Assembly (NCBI GenBank): GCA_001595945.1
Contig: LSSI01000078.1
Location: 1 to 34,143 of the forward strand
Direction: 5' to 3'
Origin: Thermoplasmatales archaeon SM1-50
Lineage (GTDB): Archaea > Thermoplasmatota > E2 > DHVEG-1
DNA: 34,143 nt
Below are positions 9,887 through 29,648 of the stretch, in pieces. Below the pieces are notes generated by a model. That model worked only from the letters and a program-made list of their open reading frames with translations, had not been told where the DNA came from and ran no database searches. The translations under genes were made by a program, and so were the position numbers. Position 1 is the first letter of the stretch. Every line of letters begins with the position of its first letter.

Positions 9887-11248
9887 TTACACTATGTATT
9901 TAATCGGTAGTTTTTGAACGAAAAATTGGTATTTCCCCCGGCTGGTCCGAGGAATGTGATTCGTATAAGAGAGAGACACTGAGAATTCATCTCCCAATCT
10001 TTTATGGATATTATCTTTTATCTGTCGAGCGTCATCCTTGGAAAACCCATCTTTTTTAACGATATTAAGGATAAGCTCTCCCTCTTGTTCTTGGTATAGC
10101 TGGTATTCTTTCATATGCGCGGATGATTTTGAGATAAGTTGCAGCACCCCCATCAAAGGCACAAGTCGACTGGTTCTTGAGACCATGAAATCCTGCACTC
10201 TTCCCTCTATTGACTTAAGAAGCGGATAGTTTCTCCCGCATTCGCACGGGTGCATTGACCAAGTTGCGATGTCCCCAGTTTTGTACCGTATAAAAGGGAA
10301 TATCCCTGTATGAAAACCAGTAGCGACGATTTCCCCGGATTGTCCTTCTTTCGTGATGGGGTAACCGTTTCTGTCGATAAGCTCGACGAAGCCGTAGTCA
10401 GGGAAGATATGGTAGGCGTTACTTTTTTCACAGGTTCCTGCAAAGACGCATTGCTCCCGGTGCCCATATTGACCATGTACCCGACAGGAGAAGTAGGTTT
10501 CGAGAAATTCCCGTTGCCAGTCATAGATGGTTTCTCCGAAGCAGAAAATCGCTTTCAACCGCTCTAACTTCATCGTATCTTGTTTTGTTGAGGATGCAAG
10601 CATCGTGATCGCGGAGGGATATCCTATTATATAATGTGGTTGTAACCGCCTGATTTTTTTTATATATCTTGGTAGGTTTAGGTCTGTCATCTGGTATGAA
10701 GAAAGAACAAGGGTTCGTGAGAAAGGACGATATTCCCAGGTTTTCTCCCTGCCGATAAGTTGAACAGATTTATCCATAACATTGCAACCAGCCTGTTCAA
10801 GGAGTATTTTAAGATACGCAAGATGTTTTGCGAACCAAACTCCTTTTTCAATGGAGAATCTGAGGGCAAACCCTGTAGAGCCACCAGTATTAGTCTCCTC
10901 AAAGGCGTACATCGGGTAATTCGTTGCCTTAAATTCGTTTGTGTGTTCTTGAATGGTTTCCTTGCCTAGAATTGGTAGGTGTTGAAAGTCCTCAAGTAAT
11001 TTGATATCCTTTGGGGTGATGCCTTGAGTTTTGAAGAGTGTTCTATAGTATGGCACATGTTCATATGCATGTGTAAGAAGAGAAGTGAGTTGCTCCCATT
11101 GATACCTTTGTATTTGCTCAATGGTCCATCTTTCTGTGCGTTTTACGAATTTGTAGGTGTTTTGATAGGATGAATTATAGAAAAGTGTGGTGAGTGCGAT
11201 TCCAAGCCCTGTGTCTTCGTTAAAGAGATGTTGCCAGAGTTTTTGCAT
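9887..11248 (-). CDS. CapK/PaaK-type adenylate-forming enzyme
   Basis: A 453-aa ANL-superfamily protein of the phenylacetate-CoA ligase/CapK branch (COG1541-like), which activates a carboxylate as an acyl-adenylate. Motifs in order: the N-terminal region with HAYEHVPYYRTLF, the phosphate loop NTGGSTG at about 121-127, FCFGETI, YGHREQC (the A5-like segment), IRYKTGD, GRVQDFMV, and RTSRGKYQFFV with a C-terminal Lys. CEKS and HPCECGRNYP contain Cys that may bind metal as in PaaK relatives. CapK-type members are often found in surface polysaccharide or unknown clusters, and coenzyme F390 synthetases are related; phenylacetate itself is not implied. It lies alone between two secreted protease genes. 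The ribosome site before its ATG is weak (AGAGAAGAT). Confidence 0.85.
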   Translation of the reverse strand: MQKLWQHLFNEDTGLGIALTTLFYNSSYQNTYKFVKRTERWTIEQIQRYQWEQLTSLLTHAYEHVPYYRTLFKTQGITPKDIKLLEDFQHLPILGKETIQEHTNEFKATNYPMYAFEETNTGGSTGFALRFSIEKGVWFAKHLAYLKILLEQAGCNVMDKSVQLIGREKTWEYRPFSRTLVLSSYQMTDLNLPRYIKKIRRLQPHYIIGYPSAITMLASSTKQDTMKLERLKAIFCFGETIYDWQREFLETYFSCRVHGQYGHREQCVFAGTCEKSNAYHIFPDYGFVELIDRNGYPITKEGQSGEIVATGFHTGIFPFIRYKTGDIATWSMHPCECGRNYPLLKSIEGRVQDFMVSRTSRLVPLMGVLQLISKSSAHMKEYQLYQEQEGELILNIVKKDGFSKDDARQIKDNIHKRLGDEFSVSLSYTNHIPRTSRGKYQFFVQKLPIKYIV

Positions 11249-21688: not shown

Positions 21689-22114
21689 ATGAAGGATGAC
21701 CCTATAGAACATGTACTTGATGATTTAATGCGACTTGATGATATCTTAGCCTGCATGGTCGCACGGCGGAATATGATCAGCGTAATGCCATCAGGTGAAG
21801 GGTTCAAACCAGAGGTAAATCAAATCTGGGATGTAATCAAGCGCGCAATGGATGATGTCTTTGCAGTGATTCGTGAGTACTCCGGCGCTGGCCTTGGTGA
21901 GATGGAGTTCCGACTGCAGGATTACGAGGTCTTATTCTATGTGTTCCCTGATACTGAAAATGCATTGGTTGCGATAGTACCTGCTCTTGCAAATAAGGGG
22001 TTACTTGAGGTAGAAATGGAGAACGCACGTCGAGAAATCCTTAAGGCAATGGAAACACCAAAAACAAAATCCACAGTTTCGAAAAAAACCGATGAAATAG
22101 TAGTGAATGCATAA
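21689..22114 (+). CDS. Roadblock/LC7-like domain protein (tentative)
   Basis: A 141-aa soluble protein. The order of elements fits a Roadblock/LC7 fold: an N-terminal helix (PIEHVLDDLMRLDDI), strand ACMVARR, NMISVMPSGE as the beta hairpin, a long helix (VNQIWDVIKRAMDDVFAVIREY), strands EMEFRLQDYEVLFYVFPDTENALVAIVPA, and a final helix. The C-terminal 20 residues are Lys/Thr-rich and look disordered. In archaea and bacteria such proteins usually regulate small Ras-like GTPases, but none is encoded here. Its promoter carries a CACTA/TAGTG palindrome related to the one before the FIST gene 0.5 kb downstream, so the two may be co-regulated. Fold assignment is by eye only. Confidence 0.6.
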   Translation: MKDDPIEHVLDDLMRLDDILACMVARRNMISVMPSGEGFKPEVNQIWDVIKRAMDDVFAVIREYSGAGLGEMEFRLQDYEVLFYVFPDTENALVAIVPALANKGLLEVEMENARREILKAMETPKTKSTVSKKTDEIVVNA

Positions 22115-22227: not shown

Positions 22228-23493
22228 ATGATTGAACCAACATTTGAAGCAGCAATTGGAATGAGCCGGAAATGGGATGCAAGAGCGGCCGGGAGAGAAG
22301 TAGCTAGAACCACAATAGACAAATTAACTCGTCCACCTGATTTCTTTTTATTGTTTTCTACAATTCATTATGAAAAATATGGGGGGTTTCAGGAGTTCTT
22401 AAATGGGGTTTGGGATGTTTTACCAAAAGGTACACCATTGGTTGGAGGAACTGTTGCTGGATTTATGAATAATTATGGTTGTTATACACATGGAGCAACT
22501 GGTTTAAGTGTTAGTGGAGAAGATATATTTACAATATCTGATGTAGTACATAACACAAAACGGTCACCAATTAATGCAGCTAATAAAGTAATATCCAAAA
22601 TAAAACCATATTATAACAAAAAAAATGGGATACTTCTAGAATTTATTTCTGGACCAACAATTCCTGAACTTCCTGTTCTAGGAAAGATGAATCTAATAAA
22701 ATCAAGGATAACATCTGAATTTTTATTAAAATTTGGAATAAGAGCGACTTCATTATTTGGATACGGGATTGCTAAAGATTCGATAATTCTAGGAGAAATA
22801 AAGAAAAGTTTTCCAGAAATGAATATAATTGGCGGAGCGACAATGGATGATGGAAAGTTAATGAGAAATTATCAATTTTGGAATAATTCTGTTTTTGAGA
22901 ATTCTCTAACCTTTTTATATATACATCTAAAAAATAAATTTCAAATGGACGGTGTTCTTGAACTCGTTCCAACCAATATTTCATTCGAAGTAAACAAAAC
23001 TAGTAATGGAAATACAGTACTAGAGAAATTAGATAATATGCCGGCTGTTGATGCATTTTTTAAGAAAATAAATAAGATTGATTATCCACTAAAAAGTAAA
23101 GATCTTTTATATCGAGCAACAATGAGCTATCCTATTGTATCTGAAGATGGAAAATCATCAACAGGAATAGGTGCAATATATGGAAAAGGAATACTTCTAG
23201 GTCATCCTATGAATAGAAAAAAAATATTTTTATTACGAGGATCTGGTCATCATATTTCTGATGCGACAAAAATGTTAAAAAATACGCTTGAAGGAAAAAA
23301 GATGATCCTTGGTTCAATGTGTGAAACATGTGTGGATATCCTGGGAAGAAAACTTTATGATCAAAAAACAATAGTCGATGATATGATACAAGACACTCCA
23401 TATTTATTTCTCTATTTTGGAGGAGAACATTACGCTCACAAAGATGAATTACTTGTTAGGAGTCATTCAATGAATGTTTTAGGTGTCTCATAA
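22228..23493 (+). CDS. FIST N/FIST C domain sensor-type protein
   Basis: A 421-aa protein of the FIST family (FIST_N then FIST_C), predicted to bind small ligands such as amino acids in signalling. The FIST_N half (about 5-215) shows IGMSRKWDARAAGREVARTT, FFLLFSTIHYEKYGG, PKGTPLVGGTVAGFMNNYG and GATGLSVSGEDI. FIST_C (about 225-400) includes MNIIGGATMDDG and LYRATMSYPIV. Near the end it has GSMCETCVDILG, a C-x-x-C of unknown role. The ATG at 22228 is chosen over GTG 22216 because GAGGTTGAG lies just before it. The GNAT-like gene starts directly at the next base after the TAA. Base composition is clearly more AT-rich than flanking genes. The ligand is unknown. Confidence 0.85.
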   Translation: MIEPTFEAAIGMSRKWDARAAGREVARTTIDKLTRPPDFFLLFSTIHYEKYGGFQEFLNGVWDVLPKGTPLVGGTVAGFMNNYGCYTHGATGLSVSGEDIFTISDVVHNTKRSPINAANKVISKIKPYYNKKNGILLEFISGPTIPELPVLGKMNLIKSRITSEFLLKFGIRATSLFGYGIAKDSIILGEIKKSFPEMNIIGGATMDDGKLMRNYQFWNNSVFENSLTFLYIHLKNKFQMDGVLELVPTNISFEVNKTSNGNTVLEKLDNMPAVDAFFKKINKIDYPLKSKDLLYRATMSYPIVSEDGKSSTGIGAIYGKGILLGHPMNRKKIFLLRGSGHHISDATKMLKNTLEGKKMILGSMCETCVDILGRKLYDQKTIVDDMIQDTPYLFLYFGGEHYAHKDELLVRSHSMNVLGVS

Positions 23494-24651
23494 ATGAATT
23501 TTCAAATTTTCGACTATGAGCAAAAATTTGATACACAATTAATTAATCATTTCTATAAGAGTGTTTTTCACAATAGAGATGAATTTGAATATACTCGGCC
23601 TAATTCTTGGTTTCAAAGATACTCACCTTATAACTATCCAATAATAAAGATTGCGAAATATAGAGATTCCATTGTAGGTACTTTGGGAATCCTTCCATGT
23701 ACGGCTATAATAAATGGAAAAAAACTTAAAGGTGGATATTTTGTTGATAACTGTATTTCACCAGATTTTTCAGAAGGTTACGATGAGATAATGTTCGAAC
23801 TTTTTAAATCTGTTGAAAAAGAAATGATAAATAATAATTTAAAGTTCATAGCTGGATGGGATTATTTAAAAAATTTTGAACTTCATAAAAACCTATATAT
23901 CAATTCAGGTTTTTCTTTTAGACGTGGTATTAACTGGTTTATTGGCGGTTTAGAATATAAAAGAAAAAAACCAGCAAAATGGCGTGGAAATAATAAAATT
24001 TATTGGGGATCTGCATTTATTATTCTTAAATTTTATAATTCTTTTAAAAAATTTTCTACCCCTAAAAAAATTAAAGGAGTGGCAATAAAACTTTCTGATA
24101 AAACTAATCTTATAAAAACAATCCAATTTTTAAATGAGAATCATCCTGCCAAAGAGTTCCATTCTTTTTATTCACCAGAAATTCTTGAACAATTATGGGA
24201 TTTAGTAGGACTTAGAAGTTTGATAGCAGAAAAAGATAATAAAATCTTGGGTGTGGCAACTTTTACGATTTCAACTTGGGCAGGTCTGATGTATGGCAAA
24301 CCTTTTGACAAAGAATATGAAGAATTTCGCACAATTACCCTTGATGAATTTATTATATCAAAGGAGTGGATAAATACAAATCTCCCAATTATAATGATAC
24401 GCGCTCTACTGGATTTGGACAAGAGGTACCAGACTTCTTCTGGGTCATCCGGTTTTGTCGCTGCAATATTTGATCGAGGCATAGAATGGATGCAGCATTC
24501 ATTTAAATCCGTTGGTTTTCTTGAAGCTCGAGCTGATTTCGGTGTGTTTTTAGTAAAACCTATAAATGAATTCTCATTTAATACTGAAGCTCCTTGGTCA
24601 ATTCCAGCAAGGGGAATAATTGCCCCGTATCCTGATTGGATTAGAGAATAA
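23494..24651 (+). CDS. GNAT-superfamily N-acetyltransferase-like protein
   Basis: A 385-aa protein with one clear GNAT-like half and a second weaker half. The N-terminal part (about 1-150) has IIKIAKYRDSIVGTLGILPC, GGYFVDNCISPDFSEGY (the strand beta4 and pyrophosphate-loop region) and FIAGWDYLKNFELHKNLYINSGF, a typical end of a GNAT domain. Residues about 200-360 repeat the layout (SLIAEKDNKILGVATFTIS; RGIEWMQHSFKSVGFLEARADFGVF). The double-GNAT layout occurs in peptidyl or lipid-linked acyltransferases, but no substrate can be read. It directly abuts the FIST stop codon (0 nt) and ends 9 nt before the ferredoxin gene, forming a three-gene operon. Very AT-rich. Confidence 0.7.
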   Translation: MNFQIFDYEQKFDTQLINHFYKSVFHNRDEFEYTRPNSWFQRYSPYNYPIIKIAKYRDSIVGTLGILPCTAIINGKKLKGGYFVDNCISPDFSEGYDEIMFELFKSVEKEMINNNLKFIAGWDYLKNFELHKNLYINSGFSFRRGINWFIGGLEYKRKKPAKWRGNNKIYWGSAFIILKFYNSFKKFSTPKKIKGVAIKLSDKTNLIKTIQFLNENHPAKEFHSFYSPEILEQLWDLVGLRSLIAEKDNKILGVATFTISTWAGLMYGKPFDKEYEEFRTITLDEFIISKEWINTNLPIIMIRALLDLDKRYQTSSGSSGFVAAIFDRGIEWMQHSFKSVGFLEARADFGVFLVKPINEFSFNTEAPWSIPARGIIAPYPDWIRE

Positions 24652-24660
24652 GGCGATCAT

Positions 24661-24840
24661 ATGATCTTACTTAACAAAAACAAATGTATAAGTTGTCTTG
24701 CTTGCATTGCAGCTTGTCCTTATGGAATAATCGAAATAGAAGGGTTATTTATCTCAATAAAAGATACTAAAAAATGTGACATTTGCAAAGAAAAAAATTG
24801 TAAAATATTATGTCCGACAGGCGCAATTATCGTAAGTTGA
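24661..24840 (+). CDS. Small 2[4Fe-4S] ferredoxin
   Basis: A 59-aa frame below the cut-off of many gene finders. It has eight Cys in two groups: C-I-S-C-L-A-C-I-A-A-C-P near residue 9 and C-D-I-C-K-E-K-N-C-K-I-L-C-P near residue 39. The first group is a standard CxxCxxCxxxCP. The second has CxxCx4CxxxCP, with a 4-residue gap between the second and third Cys. It begins 9 nt after the GNAT-like gene and its last 14 nt overlap the end of the convergent flavoprotein gene. In Methanosarcina a ferredoxin encoded beside geranylgeranyl reductase donates its electrons, so this protein likely serves the neighbouring reductase. Confidence 0.88.
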   Translation: MILLNKNKCISCLACIAACPYGIIEIEGLFISIKDTKKCDICKEKNCKILCPTGAIIVS

Positions 24841-26077
24841 TTTCAATGTTCATTTCTTTTTTTATAATCAATTTTTTTGCATAGTCAGTTAAATCTTTTA
24901 TGCTCTTGTATTTTAATGCCGTCTTTAGTTCTTTACCATCCCACTGGATCATTTCAAGTTCAAGCATTGCCGTGAGCATGGATTTAATGTCATTGGGAAG
25001 ATCCATTGCGATAACACTACTAATATTGTCTTTTATTTGTACTGTTCTCCTTGCTTCTTGACCTATAAAACTTGCTTCATATTCCTCGGCATATTGCTTT
25101 AAAACTTCATAAGAATTTGATTCTATCGCTTCTGCGACTTTTTGTCCAGCAATTACTGCTGCTTGCAATCCAGGAATGATGCCCTCGCCAACATAGGCAA
25201 AGTTCTGATTTGCTGAATCACCAACTAAAATAGTATTACCATAGACAGGGTACAATGGTGCTGATAAATCGATGATTCCACCTTTTATTTCAAGGGGAGA
25301 AGCACGCTTCAATTGTCGATTCATATCTGGATTTAATTCAGCTAATATGTAAAAATCTTCAAATGGAGAACGAGATGTAAAAGGATTTTTTCCATAAAAT
25401 GGTCTTGCACCAACTCCTACATCTGCCCGGTCATTTCCCTTTGGAAATATATACCCATAACCACCTATTATATCACCCATAAATAACTGCATAGAATTTT
25501 CGGAGTCTAAATCTAAATTAGTTACCTCAATCTCAATGGCACACCCCCAATCCTTTATGCCAGAAAACAACGTATCCCCAAGAAGTTTTCTACGAATTAT
25601 GGATGTTACTCCATCAGCCCCAACAACAATCTTAGGTTTGATCTCAATTTCTCCTTGAATTGATTTCGCTTTAGCATAGTCGATATTTTTGCCTTTCATG
25701 ACAATATCTGTAACTGTTGTACTAAGACGAAGTTTGCTTCCAGCTTTAATAGCAGCTTGAGCAAGTGTCTTTTCTGTTTCTTTCCGATTCAACATAAAAG
25801 ATTTCCATTTTTGCTCTTTAGTAATGATTTTTGAAACAGGATTGTAAATCACTGTATCTTCAATTGGCCATGTATGCATTTTTTCTAAGAATGGGAGGTC
25901 TTGATAGAATTCTTCAAAGAGGAATTTGCTAACGGCCTCCCCACCCCTTAGAGGAGCCGCAATTTCATTTTTTCTGTCTACTACTACAACATCCAATCCT
26001 TTTTTTGACGCTATATACGAAAAAGTAGTTCCAACTGGTCCTGCACCTACAACCAACACATCGCACTCTATTCTCAT
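24827..26077 (-). CDS. Geranylgeranyl reductase family FAD-dependent oxidoreductase
   Basis: A 416-aa flavoprotein of the geranylgeranyl reductase family (COG0644 type), which saturates isoprenoid double bonds; in archaea it hydrogenates the prenyl chains of membrane ether lipids. Motifs are the dinucleotide fold CDVLVVGAGPVGTTFSY at 5-21, DRKNEIAAPLRGGEAV (flavin loop) near 35-50, KIVVGADGVTSIIRR near 149-163, GYIFPKGNDRADVGVG, and the second FAD motif NTILVGDSANQNFAYVGEGI near 278-297. Catalytic details are not readable, and related oxidoreductases act on other substrates. The 3' end overlaps by 14 nt with the ferredoxin gene on the other strand, an arrangement suggesting antisense interference between the two messages. 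Confidence 0.88.
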   Translation of the reverse strand: MRIECDVLVVGAGPVGTTFSYIASKKGLDVVVVDRKNEIAAPLRGGEAVSKFLFEEFYQDLPFLEKMHTWPIEDTVIYNPVSKIITKEQKWKSFMLNRKETEKTLAQAAIKAGSKLRLSTTVTDIVMKGKNIDYAKAKSIQGEIEIKPKIVVGADGVTSIIRRKLLGDTLFSGIKDWGCAIEIEVTNLDLDSENSMQLFMGDIIGGYGYIFPKGNDRADVGVGARPFYGKNPFTSRSPFEDFYILAELNPDMNRQLKRASPLEIKGGIIDLSAPLYPVYGNTILVGDSANQNFAYVGEGIIPGLQAAVIAGQKVAEAIESNSYEVLKQYAEEYEASFIGQEARRTVQIKDNISSVIAMDLPNDIKSMLTAMLELEMIQWDGKELKTALKYKSIKDLTDYAKKLIIKKEMNIEINLR

Positions 26078-26130: not shown

Positions 26131-26700
26131 TTAGGCACATATGGTTTTACTTATCTGTTCGCGAGATCTGCTATACATTCGTACCACGAGGTAAGCCCCG
26201 TCAAATAATAGCATCGCAAGAAAGAAGTACCAGGGAAAAACGCCAAGCAACGCAACATACAAGACCGCAATTTTTGTGACCCAACGCTGATCAAAAAAAG
26301 CGATTATCCCTTTATGGAGAAAATTCGATTTATCAAGACTTGTCCTATTGTAGTCAACAATGTCATTACCAACTTCATCAAGGACTGCTGCCGCAATAAG
26401 AACAATTAACGGAAGGAAAAGCAACTGAACACCAGCGGCAATTAAAATTACGGCGATAACTGCAAGCCCAAGGCCATGTGCATAGTTATCGATTTTTCCT
26501 TTTAGAAAAACTCCTATTAATACTGCAAGTAGTATAGTCGCAGAAACCGGATCGATAATCATAGTATACGCCCAAAAGAGTCCAAGAATTGGAGCAAGCA
26601 GTACCGCGATTTTCTTGTTAAACGTAAGTTCATCGAACGCATCGTCAATATATTTTAATCCTGCCCCAAGGATGGGGTAGGCTATCAGGAAGAAATACAT
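26131..26700 (-). CDS. Polytopic membrane protein (paralogue A)
   Basis: A 189-aa integral membrane protein with about five hydrophobic segments (residues about 1-16, 33-64, 75-108, 140-165). Charged motifs between them are KYIDDAFDE near 16-24, LKGKIDNYAH near 66-75 and LDEVGNDI near 106-113, followed by FFDQRW. The acidic motifs placed at helix ends resemble metal-dependent membrane enzymes such as UbiA-type prenyltransferases or phosphotransferases, but I cannot assign a family. It is about three quarters identical to the next protein over the first 60 residues and is a tandem duplicate of it. It ends 53 nt before the reductase family gene on the same strand, so co-transcription and a role in lipid metabolism are possible. 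Confidence 0.8.
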   Translation of the reverse strand: MYFFLIAYPILGAGLKYIDDAFDELTFNKKIAVLLAPILGLFWAYTMIIDPVSATILLAVLIGVFLKGKIDNYAHGLGLAVIAVILIAAGVQLLFLPLIVLIAAAVLDEVGNDIVDYNRTSLDKSNFLHKGIIAFFDQRWVTKIAVLYVALLGVFPWYFFLAMLLFDGAYLVVRMYSRSREQISKTICA

Positions 26701-26819: not shown

Positions 26820-27407
26820 TTATGCTTGAGAGATGTCAGAAGTAGTCGGGGACATAAGCAGAGCCTTTTGGCGAATCTGACTAACCGACCGAACACCAAG
26901 ATAAGCGCCGTCAAAAAGCAACATCGCGACAAAGAAAAACCAGGGTAATATACTCACCACCACAAGCCCTAGAATGGCGACCTTTGCGACCCATCGCTGG
27001 TCAAAGAATCCAATCACGAGTCTCTGCCACCACTTTCCCCCAGCAAGGCACCTGCTCTTATAAACCAAATCATTGCCAACTTCATCAAGTAACGCAGCAA
27101 CCGCAAGAATGAGTAATGGAACAAACAAAAGCTGAACACCAGCAACCACAACAATAGCGATAATTACTGCCAGACCAATCACATGGGCGATATTATCGAT
27201 TTTTCCCTTCATTACCACACCAAGGAGTATTGCAAGAAGGATTGTTGCAGCGACCGCATCAATTATCATTGTATAAGCCCAAAGAATACCAAGTAACGGA
27301 GCGATTATATAAGCGGTCTTCTTATTGAATACTTTTTCATCAAATGCATCATCGATATATTTTACCCCTGCACCTAAAACCGCAAAAGCAATTAAAAAGA
27401 AATACAT
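26820..27407 (-). CDS. Polytopic membrane protein (paralogue B)
   Basis: A 195-aa paralogue of the preceding gene with the same layout and motifs: KYIDDAFDE, MKGKIDNIAH, LDEVGNDLV, FFDQRW and MLLFDGAYLGVR. Sequence differs most after residue 112 and in the C-terminal tail, which ends polar here. GGAGGT lies 9 nt before the ATG at 27407. Tandem duplication with both motif sets kept implies both copies are functional, perhaps forming a heterodimer. Function unknown. The 119 bp between the copies contain TATA-like sequence, so copy A may have its own promoter. Confidence 0.8.
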   Translation of the reverse strand: MYFFLIAFAVLGAGVKYIDDAFDEKVFNKKTAYIIAPLLGILWAYTMIIDAVAATILLAILLGVVMKGKIDNIAHVIGLAVIIAIVVVAGVQLLFVPLLILAVAALLDEVGNDLVYKSRCLAGGKWWQRLVIGFFDQRWVAKVAILGLVVVSILPWFFFVAMLLFDGAYLGVRSVSQIRQKALLMSPTTSDISQA

Positions 27408-27723
27408 CTAGATCATACCTCCAAGGTAAGGAGAAACACCAATTGAATTCGCGCTCTTCTTTTGGTTCATTCTTTTCTAGCCCCAATGATATCAATTCTC
27501 CTGGAGAACATAAAACCCTCTTCCTAGAAAACCCTACAAAATTCCAAAAATGATATATTTTTTTTACTTTTGATGGAAAAGAGTGGCTTTCAAAAAATAT
27601 AATAAATTATAATTTTTTATTAATAACAGCACAACGAAGTATTCTGCCCTATAGTCTTGTAAGAATCACCAGATTAAATTTTTCTTTTTTATGATAAAAT
27701 ACTAGAAAAAACAAAGAATAAAA
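27408..27723. other. Gene-free stretch
   Basis: AT-rich with no convincing gene on either strand. A 14-codon minus-strand frame with a GGAAGAGGG before its ATG (near 27511) is the best candidate precursor-like frame but is probably chance. T-rich termination signals for the radical SAM gene occupy 27695-27716. Confidence 0.5.
27695..27716 (-). terminator. T-rich terminator after the RiPP-like radical SAM gene
   Basis: The minus strand reads TTTATTC, TTTGTTTTTTC within about 30 nt of the stop codon. Confidence 0.45.
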
Positions 27724-29616
27724 TTACGGTGAAATGTTCACAAGGTATTCTCTGTCTTTCTCTACTGTGTCTTTTACACGACAACGTAACGGGAGGGCTA
27801 GATAGCTATCATCCTCGACGTACAGCAGCCTGTTCTGCTCAAAGCTTTGCAATATAGCGGTTAGTTCAAATTCCGGCACGTCAAGGAATCGTTTCTGGAG
27901 TTCTTGGAATGATATGATGTCGATGCAGCTTAGGAAGATCTTTCGTTCGAGTTCGTTTAACACATGTATCTTTACGTTCAAAGGGTCTCGTTTGTCATAG
28001 ATTTTTATAAAACTTCCCCCATCAACAAAATAAAATACGAACTGATCGGTCATGGTCTGTTTTCTATTTTTTTCAGACTGGGATGTTTCTTGGTCTTTTT
28101 TCCATTCTGCAACAAGCGGCTCCCAGGGGGGATTTAGTGTTGGATTTTTTGGGACGTATTCATAGAAAAAAGCGATCCCTTCCTTGAGTATTTCTGCGGG
28201 GTACATGAGCTGGTCGATAGATGCTGGTTGTAGTTGCTGGATATTGAATTGTTCGGGGTGGCGGTAGATTATGCTTCCATGCATGACCCGTAGTTCGCAG
28301 AGCTGGGGAGCATCGAGATAAGCCTTTAAAAGTTGTATTGTTTTTTTTGCCTCCTCATAGTCCGCCGTGTCTTCATTTGGGTATCGTACAAGGAGATTGT
28401 AGTTGTTTTGTATCTGGTTTTCTTTGCAGAACTTAAGGGCTGCAATATTGTCGATCACCCGTGCGCCCTTATTCATCTTTCGTAGATAACTTTTACTAAA
28501 GGATTCGATTCCTGTTTGAATGCTGGTGAACCCTGCTTCTTTCATCAATGTATAGTCTTGGCTGGTCAGTTGCCCTGCGCGTGCTTCAACGAAAAACGAA
28601 AAGTCTCGTCTAAGGTTTTTTAGTTTTTCAAATAGGGTTCTGTATTCGATCTTTGGTAATGTGTTTCCGATGAGCTGGAACTCTGTCATGCGGTATCTTT
28701 CAGAGAGCGATTGGATTTCTTGGATGATACGACTCGCCCTTTTTTCTCGGTAGCAGTGATGCTGGATGTTCAGGTTGCAAAACGTGCAGCGGTTCCACCA
28801 GCAGCCCCGGGAGATCTCTACAGGGAGTCTGCCATAATAGTGATAGTACTGCTGAATATCAGCAGTTGTTGAAGCAAGCTCCTTGTAGAATTGATCGTAC
28901 GAGGGGATTGGTAGGCTATTAAGGTCAAGTTTTTCATCAGATCTGTTCCAGTGCGTCTCCTCTTGTTTCCGGTAAGTTACTTGAGGAATTGATTGGTAGT
29001 TCTCATACTCTGTGGCAAGGCGGAAGAGTGCATCTTCTCCATCGCCGGAGACAATATAGTCGACATAAGGGAATGCTCGTAAGACGTGTCCCCCAAGGGT
29101 GTCTGCTGTTCTGCTGCCGCCTAGAATAATCGTCTTCTCCGGGTGTAAATCTTTTATTTTTTTTGCAATGGCAAGGGAGGGGAGAAGTTGTCCATAATTT
29201 AAGGTAAATCCGATAATGTCAAAGGAACGCCAGTTGACATGTTCAAGGACCCATTGATAGAACAGATCGGTACGGTGGACATAGTCGTCAAATGAAAACG
29301 AGTGGGTCTGCGGTGATTGTGTGAAATGCTTGTAGAAGTATTCCCTAAATCTTGTTGCGTTTTTCTTCCAATGCTCTGGGAATATGTATCGGGAGAATAC
29401 CATTTGTGCGGTGTAAGAATCATGGGGTGGATAGATCAGTAAATGATAGTTCTTAAGACCGTATATTTCTGCTGCTTTGAGGTAGAGATGGCGGGTCTCT
29501 ATAGGCATTTCTTTCTCTTTGCAGTATCCCTCTAATACGGAGAGCTGGATAGAAGGTATCGTAACCCCAGCAAACGGCATAGCTACAAGTAACACACTTT
29601 TTTGTTTGTTGTGCAT
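27724..29616 (-). CDS. RiPP-maturation-like radical SAM protein
   Basis: A 630-aa radical SAM protein like the B12-type RiPP maturation C-methyltransferases. From the ATG at 29616 the N-terminal domain (about 8-190) shows the B12-type fold: SVLLVAMPFAGVTIPSIQL, FDIIGFTLNYGQ and ILGGSRTADTLGGHVL. The cluster motif EISRGCWWNRCTFCNLN matches the ESRGCWWG-CxFCGLN signature of that family, but its spacing is C-x4-C-x2-C (Cys272, 277, 280) rather than the longer first gap usual there. The C-terminal 95 residues form a winged-helix-like domain. The ATG is preferred because a TATA-like TAATTATAAAAG at 29649-29660 gives a 12-nt leader; a TTG at 29637 directly follows a stop codon. No clear precursor peptide lies beside it. 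Divergent to a papain-type protease. Confidence 0.85.
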   Translation of the reverse strand: MHNKQKSVLLVAMPFAGVTIPSIQLSVLEGYCKEKEMPIETRHLYLKAAEIYGLKNYHLLIYPPHDSYTAQMVFSRYIFPEHWKKNATRFREYFYKHFTQSPQTHSFSFDDYVHRTDLFYQWVLEHVNWRSFDIIGFTLNYGQLLPSLAIAKKIKDLHPEKTIILGGSRTADTLGGHVLRAFPYVDYIVSGDGEDALFRLATEYENYQSIPQVTYRKQEETHWNRSDEKLDLNSLPIPSYDQFYKELASTTADIQQYYHYYGRLPVEISRGCWWNRCTFCNLNIQHHCYREKRASRIIQEIQSLSERYRMTEFQLIGNTLPKIEYRTLFEKLKNLRRDFSFFVEARAGQLTSQDYTLMKEAGFTSIQTGIESFSKSYLRKMNKGARVIDNIAALKFCKENQIQNNYNLLVRYPNEDTADYEEAKKTIQLLKAYLDAPQLCELRVMHGSIIYRHPEQFNIQQLQPASIDQLMYPAEILKEGIAFFYEYVPKNPTLNPPWEPLVAEWKKDQETSQSEKNRKQTMTDQFVFYFVDGGSFIKIYDKRDPLNVKIHVLNELERKIFLSCIDIISFQELQKRFLDVPEFELTAILQSFEQNRLLYVEDDSYLALPLRCRVKDTVEKDREYLVNISP

Positions 29617-29648
29617 CAGCCAATCCAAGACTACCAATCACGTGAGTT

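Follow-up and report, generated by a model that had tools for sequence, protein, structure and literature searches.

Genes and control region of the locus

The window analysed here is a 34,143-nt stretch of contig LSSI01000078.1 from Thermoplasmatales archaeon SM1-50. It carries genes for a FIST protein, a tandem-GNAT acyltransferase (GNAT), a small ferredoxin (Fer), a FAD-dependent reductase of the geranylgeranyl reductase (GGR) family and two small membrane paralogues (MEM1 and MEM2). A previous reading of the DNA letters and their open reading frames (ORFs), hereafter the sequence-only reading, had described a FIST–GNAT–Fer cassette facing the GGR gene. This layout is exact in the sequence and its ORFs: FIST and GNAT are adjacent, Fer follows after 9 nt, and Fer and GGR are convergent and share the 14 nt 24827-24840. 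An AGGTG near the 3′ end of FIST could serve the GNAT start, which makes translational coupling of the two genes plausible. The extent then proposed for the unit was incomplete, as the unit reaches a conserved operator–promoter at 27.5 kb. A comparison of 34 mapped FIST loci, the window included, shows that the downstream genes, here GNAT–Fer–GGR–MEM–MEM, are cargo that differs between conserved flanks. Coordinates are given in Table 1.

Table 1. Features of the FIST locus and its right flank, in window coordinates
Feature	Position	Strand	Remarks
orf141, small protein	21689..22114	+	No Pfam family; directly 5′ of FIST in nearly all loci
FIST	22228-23493	+	PF08495, E=1.8e-11, 44.8 bits (cut-off 23.2)
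FIST, conserved N-terminal part	22228..22500	+	Residues 1 to ~91; DNA homology to congeners (blastn, 72-80% identity) reaches no further
FIST, variable part	22501..23493	+	From residue ~140, 24-28% identity even to congeners
Tandem-GNAT acyltransferase	23494-24651	+	ATG directly after the FIST TAA
Fer, 59-aa ferredoxin	24661-24840	+	9 nt after GNAT; Fer4, E=3e-8
GGR-family FAD reductase	24827-26077	-	FAD_binding_3, E=2e-17; GGR_cat, E=2.6e-6
MEM1, small membrane protein	26131..26700	-	Invariant Asp/Glu residues
MEM2, MEM1 paralogue	26820..27407	-	First long gene of the minus-strand operon
20-codon ORF, MNQKKSANSIGVSPYLGGMI then stop	27408..27470	-	Stop abuts the MEM2 ATG
Promoter box, GGGTTTTATGTT (consensus GGGCTTTATGTT)	27507..27518	-	Conserved
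46-nt inverted-repeat operator, TTCCATCAAAA...TTTTGTAGG	27533..27578	-	Conserved 5′ of the cargo operon
B12/radical-SAM protein, rSAM_ocin_1 subfamily	27724..29637	-	E=4e-112; recurrent right flank; membership uncertain
Protein with two AsnC-type winged helices	31562..32533	+	Recurrent right flank; possibly a regulator

A conserved frame around differing cargo

The six same-genus loci (L034, L035, L036, L039, L045 and L059) align with the window by blastn at ~72-82% identity through gcvT, gcvH and orf141 and into FIST for ~250 nt. DNA homology then ends at 22481-22501 in all six, and likewise in L024, to come back at 27465-27579 in the five loci that reach that far. Replacement of the genes that lie between these boundaries is clear. 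The left breakpoint may have arisen by recombination inside FIST, although detectable homology could also end there because the C-terminal part of FIST (C-part) diverges fast. In L045, the right boundary is followed by radical-SAM and AsnC genes, as in the window; the subfamily to which the former belongs, rSAM_ocin_1, comprises C-methyltransferases of ribosomally synthesized and post-translationally modified peptides.

Across the 34 loci, downstream cargo falls into two mutually exclusive groups, GGR with MEM (12 loci) and acyl-ACP reductase (AAR)-like and/or C3 genes (13 loci); some loci of the second group carry a different GGR. MEM genes were found only alongside GGR genes and never with AAR/C3 cargo (overlap 0), in agreement with the earlier suggestion that the two membrane paralogues belong to the set. 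The AAR-like proteins match PDB 6jzu (E=1.7e-8) and TIGR04058 (E=8e-19, below its equivalog cut-off). C3 is a family of ~415 aa, often present in two copies beside the AAR-like reductases (L034-L046), for which no Pfam, NCBIfam or convincing PDB match was obtained. At L054, a cargo protein in which DDxxD and NxxxTxxxE motifs can be recognized by eye is homologous to an L121 protein that weakly matches terpene synthases (E=0.0012). The variation of cargo between constant flanks in congeners, together with the nucleotidyltransferase-like and transposase genes near some loci, could also be the mark of a generic integration hot spot, or of a defence-type island, in which the cargo genes share no function. 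We consider this unlikely, since cargo of the same types is met with in different genera, a single specific operator–promoter stands before the cargo, and PADLOC gave no convincing match; a defence role was dropped, the only PADLOC match being a weak radical-SAM one.

The right boundary, 115 nt long, lies 5′ of the minus-strand operon and contains an inverted repeat, written TTTCCTACAAAA...TTTTGTAGGAAT (46 nt as matched), together with a box between this repeat and the first ATG that is probably a B recognition element and TATA box (BRE/TATA). The repeat is read as a DNA operator and not as an RNA element because it lies upstream of the likely TATA box. Rfam gave nothing above chance around it. 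The operator pattern has a single match in the window, which is also the only one in the host genome, and none of 100 shuffles gave a match. The operator–promoter is kept across cargo types. The ATG of the 20-codon ORF that follows aligns with the C3 start codon in several congeners, and this ORF may either encode a leader peptide or be a remnant.

In relatives, sites of the same architecture occur at the FIST loci of ~15 genomes and at six places elsewhere. Four of these six precede UbiA prenyltransferase genes (L119, L122, L123 and L125 in genomes G003, G021, G025 and G030; E=4e-21, 5e-14 and 2e-15, and E=0.003 for a gene truncated by a contig end), another lies in front of a terpene-synthase-like gene (E=1e-3) and the last in front of a winged-helix gene. 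Among the evidence for a link of the locus to isoprenoids, these operator copies are the strongest. The protein encoded by the winged-helix gene, at L124, may be the regulator; relatives of this gene adjoin the cassette in L035, L036 and L039.

On the left side, the fixed partner of FIST is orf141, a gene omitted from the sequence-only reading, which had tied FIST to GNAT, Fer and GGR. The 29 homologues of orf141, 40-83% identical, are spread over 28 of the 34 loci and have no credible Pfam or PDB match; a Roadblock/LC7 identity suggested by eye was abandoned, because no such Pfam or PDB profile matched any of the 29 members. A gene for a KaiC-like ATPase (cluster 10) lies near orf141, mostly just upstream, at L037, L046, L050, L052, L053, L054, L126, L012 and L015. 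A genome search for FIST itself returned 19 loci in Thermoplasmatota and DPANN metagenome-assembled genomes, and a profile search gave matches in 35 of the 293 genomes drawn from Thermoplasmatota that form our phylum sample. The N-terminal part (N-part) of FIST is conserved whatever the downstream genes and the C-part is hypervariable, mean conservation being 0.68-0.81 over the first 120 columns and 0.40-0.55 beyond. Identity of the C-part is 39% within a cargo type versus 30% between types (N-part, 64% versus 63%), an association reached by 0 of 500 label shuffles, in which related species are not independent.

FIST could be the sensor of a signalling module, with orf141 as its partner, GNAT as a protein acetyltransferase and the reductase operon as the regulated target. 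In NosP, a partner kinase is under the control of a haem-binding FIST (PMC12570481), and the NosP profile matches the FIST N-part weakly (E=1e-5, 24.7 bits, below the equivalog cut-off of 450); the direct abutment of the FIST stop and GNAT start codons would also fit such a module. However, most FIST loci have no GNAT, and no kinase or response regulator was recognized among the recurrent neighbours, which makes this explanation improbable in our opinion. For histidine kinases, none was recognized in the window or among the recurrent clusters near FIST, single-copy neighbours elsewhere not having been annotated singly.

The reductase, its ferredoxin and the acyltransferase

GGR is just above the cut-off of the geranylgeranyl reductase family TIGR02032 (E=1.7e-46, 159.3 bits versus 158.8), and its best PDB match is the digeranylgeranylglycerophospholipid reductase of T. 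acidophilum (3oz2, E=2.6e-29). The substrate-cavity motif YxWxFP-X7/8-GxG is found as YGYIFPKGNDRADVGVG (YGYIFP..GVG), a YxYxFP variant in which Tyr replaces Trp. In contrast, the position of Cys47 in the S. acidocaldarius enzyme (SaGGR) is occupied by Gly (RGGEAVSK) in the window protein and in its orthologues from G027 and G030. According to PMC10821996, archaeal GGRs retain this flavin-side Cys, which the S. acidocaldarius enzyme cannot do without; the same review also lists paralogues that lack it. The Cys is kept (CGEG, CGGG, CAG and the like) in seven paralogues of the host, the region not having been recovered for the eighth, L069, and also in the three nearest FIST-linked GGRs. With Gly at this position, the known mechanism of prenyl reduction may not work in this clade, and GGR activity is not assured.

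The homologue might thus be no prenyl reductase at all, but a flavoprotein oxidoreductase or an electron-transfer partner of Fer, with a small molecule that GNAT acylates as one conceivable substrate. Apart from the missing Cys, this possibility draws on a Nanobdellota contig (L017) where GNAT faces another Fe-S/FAD pair; the intact cavity motif speaks against it, as does the alternative cargo, most of which consists of isoprenoid or long-chain enzymes. We regard it as a minority possibility, though one to be taken more seriously than a signalling module or an integration hot spot.

An ordinary role for GGR and Fer would be that of a housekeeping membrane-lipid reductase, as in Methanosarcina, with FIST and GNAT as unrelated neighbours. 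Gene neighbourhoods of GGR and ferredoxin are indeed common in archaea (PMC10821996). Nevertheless, the host genome has nine GGR-family matches, that is, eight besides the window gene, and one of them, C62, has the classical LCGEG and YAWVFP motifs, so that bulk lipid saturation need not depend on the window GGR. Moreover, GGR orthologues (67-71% identity) are present only in G027 and G030 besides the window genome, i.e. in 3 of the 293 genomes, a distribution too patchy for an essential lipid enzyme, and both the GNAT–Fer–GGR and the FIST–GNAT linkages recur. The housekeeping role is therefore the least probable of the explanations that we weighed. GGR also falls below the cut-offs of the bulk-lipid DGGGP reductase equivalogs (NF041080, 107.9 versus 580 bits; NF041160, 101.8 versus 780 bits). 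Taken together with the Gly replacement and the host paralogues, this indicates that GGR is probably a specialised paralogue with another substrate.

The ferredoxin has eight Cys in the arrangement CX2CX2CX3CP ... CX2CX4CX3CP, which predicts two [4Fe-4S] sites. It lies beside this GGR clade in all three orthologous loci, and the next GGR relatives, 34-35% identical and also beside FIST, have no such ferredoxin. Since a ferredoxin is the documented reductant of the Methanosarcina acetivorans GGR (PMC10821996), electrons may pass from Fer to GGR, and the link drawn between the two genes by the sequence-only reading is supported by this pairing and precedent.

The Pfam signal of GNAT is below the cut-off (Acetyltransf_9, E=1e-3, 19.5 versus 25 bits). 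Its AlphaFold2 model has moderate confidence (mean pLDDT 71) and contains two successive GNAT topologies, and Foldseek matched it to glucosamine N-acetyltransferase, N-myristoyltransferase, Eis and other tandem GNATs (E=1.7e-10), as expected from the former ‘double-GNAT’ call. In the phylum sample, GNAT occurs in 3 of 293 genomes, namely the window genome and G027 and G030, which represent two other genera of the same family. In all three, GNAT and Fer are convergent to GGR in the same order, with overlaps of 14, 14 and 11 nt. On the L017 contig, FIST is followed after 4 nt by a GNAT that is 34% identical to that of the window. An association by chance in a single genome is thereby removed. 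A neighbourhood search in archaea had been proposed: the GNAT–Fer and FIST–GNAT linkages do recur, but GNAT itself turned out to be a rare add-on, and among 194 genomes of the L017 phylum a full-length match was obtained only in L017's own genome.

Identity to the G027 and G030 orthologues is high for orf141 (80%, G027 only), GGR (67-71%), Fer (60-64%) and MEM1 (66-78%), and low for GNAT (31-33%) and for the FIST C-part (26%, G027). Judged by these sequence comparisons, Fer and GGR evolve like a pair held under a shared constraint, and the fast change of GNAT and of the FIST C-part would fit parts specific for a substrate or ligand. In G030, a 112-aa FIST fragment beyond GGR (L025:6886-7224) is apparently the remnant of an older copy, and contig C25 of this genome carries two further FIST genes.

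A putative isoprenoid-tailoring cassette and its known relatives

The explanation that we favour, with confidence that is about evenly balanced, is that the genes singled out by the sequence-only reading are the cargo of an exchangeable, regulated isoprenoid- or lipid-tailoring cassette. In this view, the cassette sits at a single chromosomal site within a Thermoplasmatota family, and its GGR is a prenyl reductase supplied with electrons by ferredoxin. The fixed frame would consist of orf141 and the FIST N-part on the left and of the operator–promoter on the right, the latter driving the inward minus-strand operon. Cargo varies by species, and most of the enzymes that can be recognized belong to types that work on isoprenoid or other long-chain lipids. 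In the window, GGR, with MEM1 and MEM2 at the membrane, would reduce a polyprenyl substrate at its double bonds, this substrate not being the bulk phospholipid, and would draw electrons from its dedicated Fer; GNAT could acylate the product or a linked carrier, and FIST with orf141 may tune the pathway through binding of a ligand or product. It is tempting to go further and suggest, much more tentatively, that the locus swaps cargo between FIST and the fixed operator–promoter with a FIST C-part matched to it, each species making and sensing its own compound (a signal, pigment or membrane modifier).

Several observations besides the Gly replacement weigh against the cassette as proposed. FIST directly adjoins GNAT in two genomes only; in G027, the two are separated by another GGR-family gene, and the convergent neighbours of GNAT in L017 are a CCG/4Fe-4S protein and a FAD-oxidase in place of a GGR. 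The association between FIST C-part and cargo is confounded by phylogeny. The operator copy of L124 precedes the winged-helix gene (9989-10543) and no enzyme, and no gene for the substrate of the cassette was identified. The MEM fold, despite a confident model, has no PDB match at E<=0.001, and its identification as a known lipid enzyme was dropped on this ground. Of the undescribed lipid-modification or lipid-sensing system once proposed, the conserved set stands, with cargo mostly of isoprenoid or long-chain lipid types, within a larger unit in which GNAT is rare; lipid sensing by FIST is conjectural.

GGR–ferredoxin neighbours, FIST sensors and tandem GNATs were each known singly. In the literature searched, mostly without subscription papers, we came across no account of the FIST/orf141 frame, of exchangeable cargo or of the operator, and no paper linking FIST to geranylgeranyl. 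A specific operator placed before genes for prenyltransferases, terpene-synthase-like proteins, reductases and acyl reductases offers a handle on the roles of archaeal GGR paralogues, on isoprenoid regulation and on FIST function, and the catalytic mechanism proposed for GGRs can be tested directly on an enzyme that has Gly in place of Cys and its own ferredoxin.

A close precedent is the GGR of Methanosarcina acetivorans, which likewise has a ferredoxin gene in the same locus. In the window, however, the pair is convergent and overlapping and is joined by FIST, GNAT and the membrane paralogues, and its GGR, one of nine family matches in the host, lacks the catalytic Cys. NosP-type sensors share the FIST N domain; unlike them, the window protein has no recognized histidine kinase partner, its fixed partner being orf141, and its C-part is hypervariable. 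GNAT resembles the N-myristoyltransferase, Eis, the tandem GNAT of the clavulanate pathway and glucosamine N-acetyltransferase in having two GNAT folds per chain, at ~10% sequence identity. Finally, the alternative cargo of congeners matches the structures and the TIGR04058 profile of the cyanobacterial long-chain AAR, from which the archaeal proteins differ in scoring below the equivalog cut-off.

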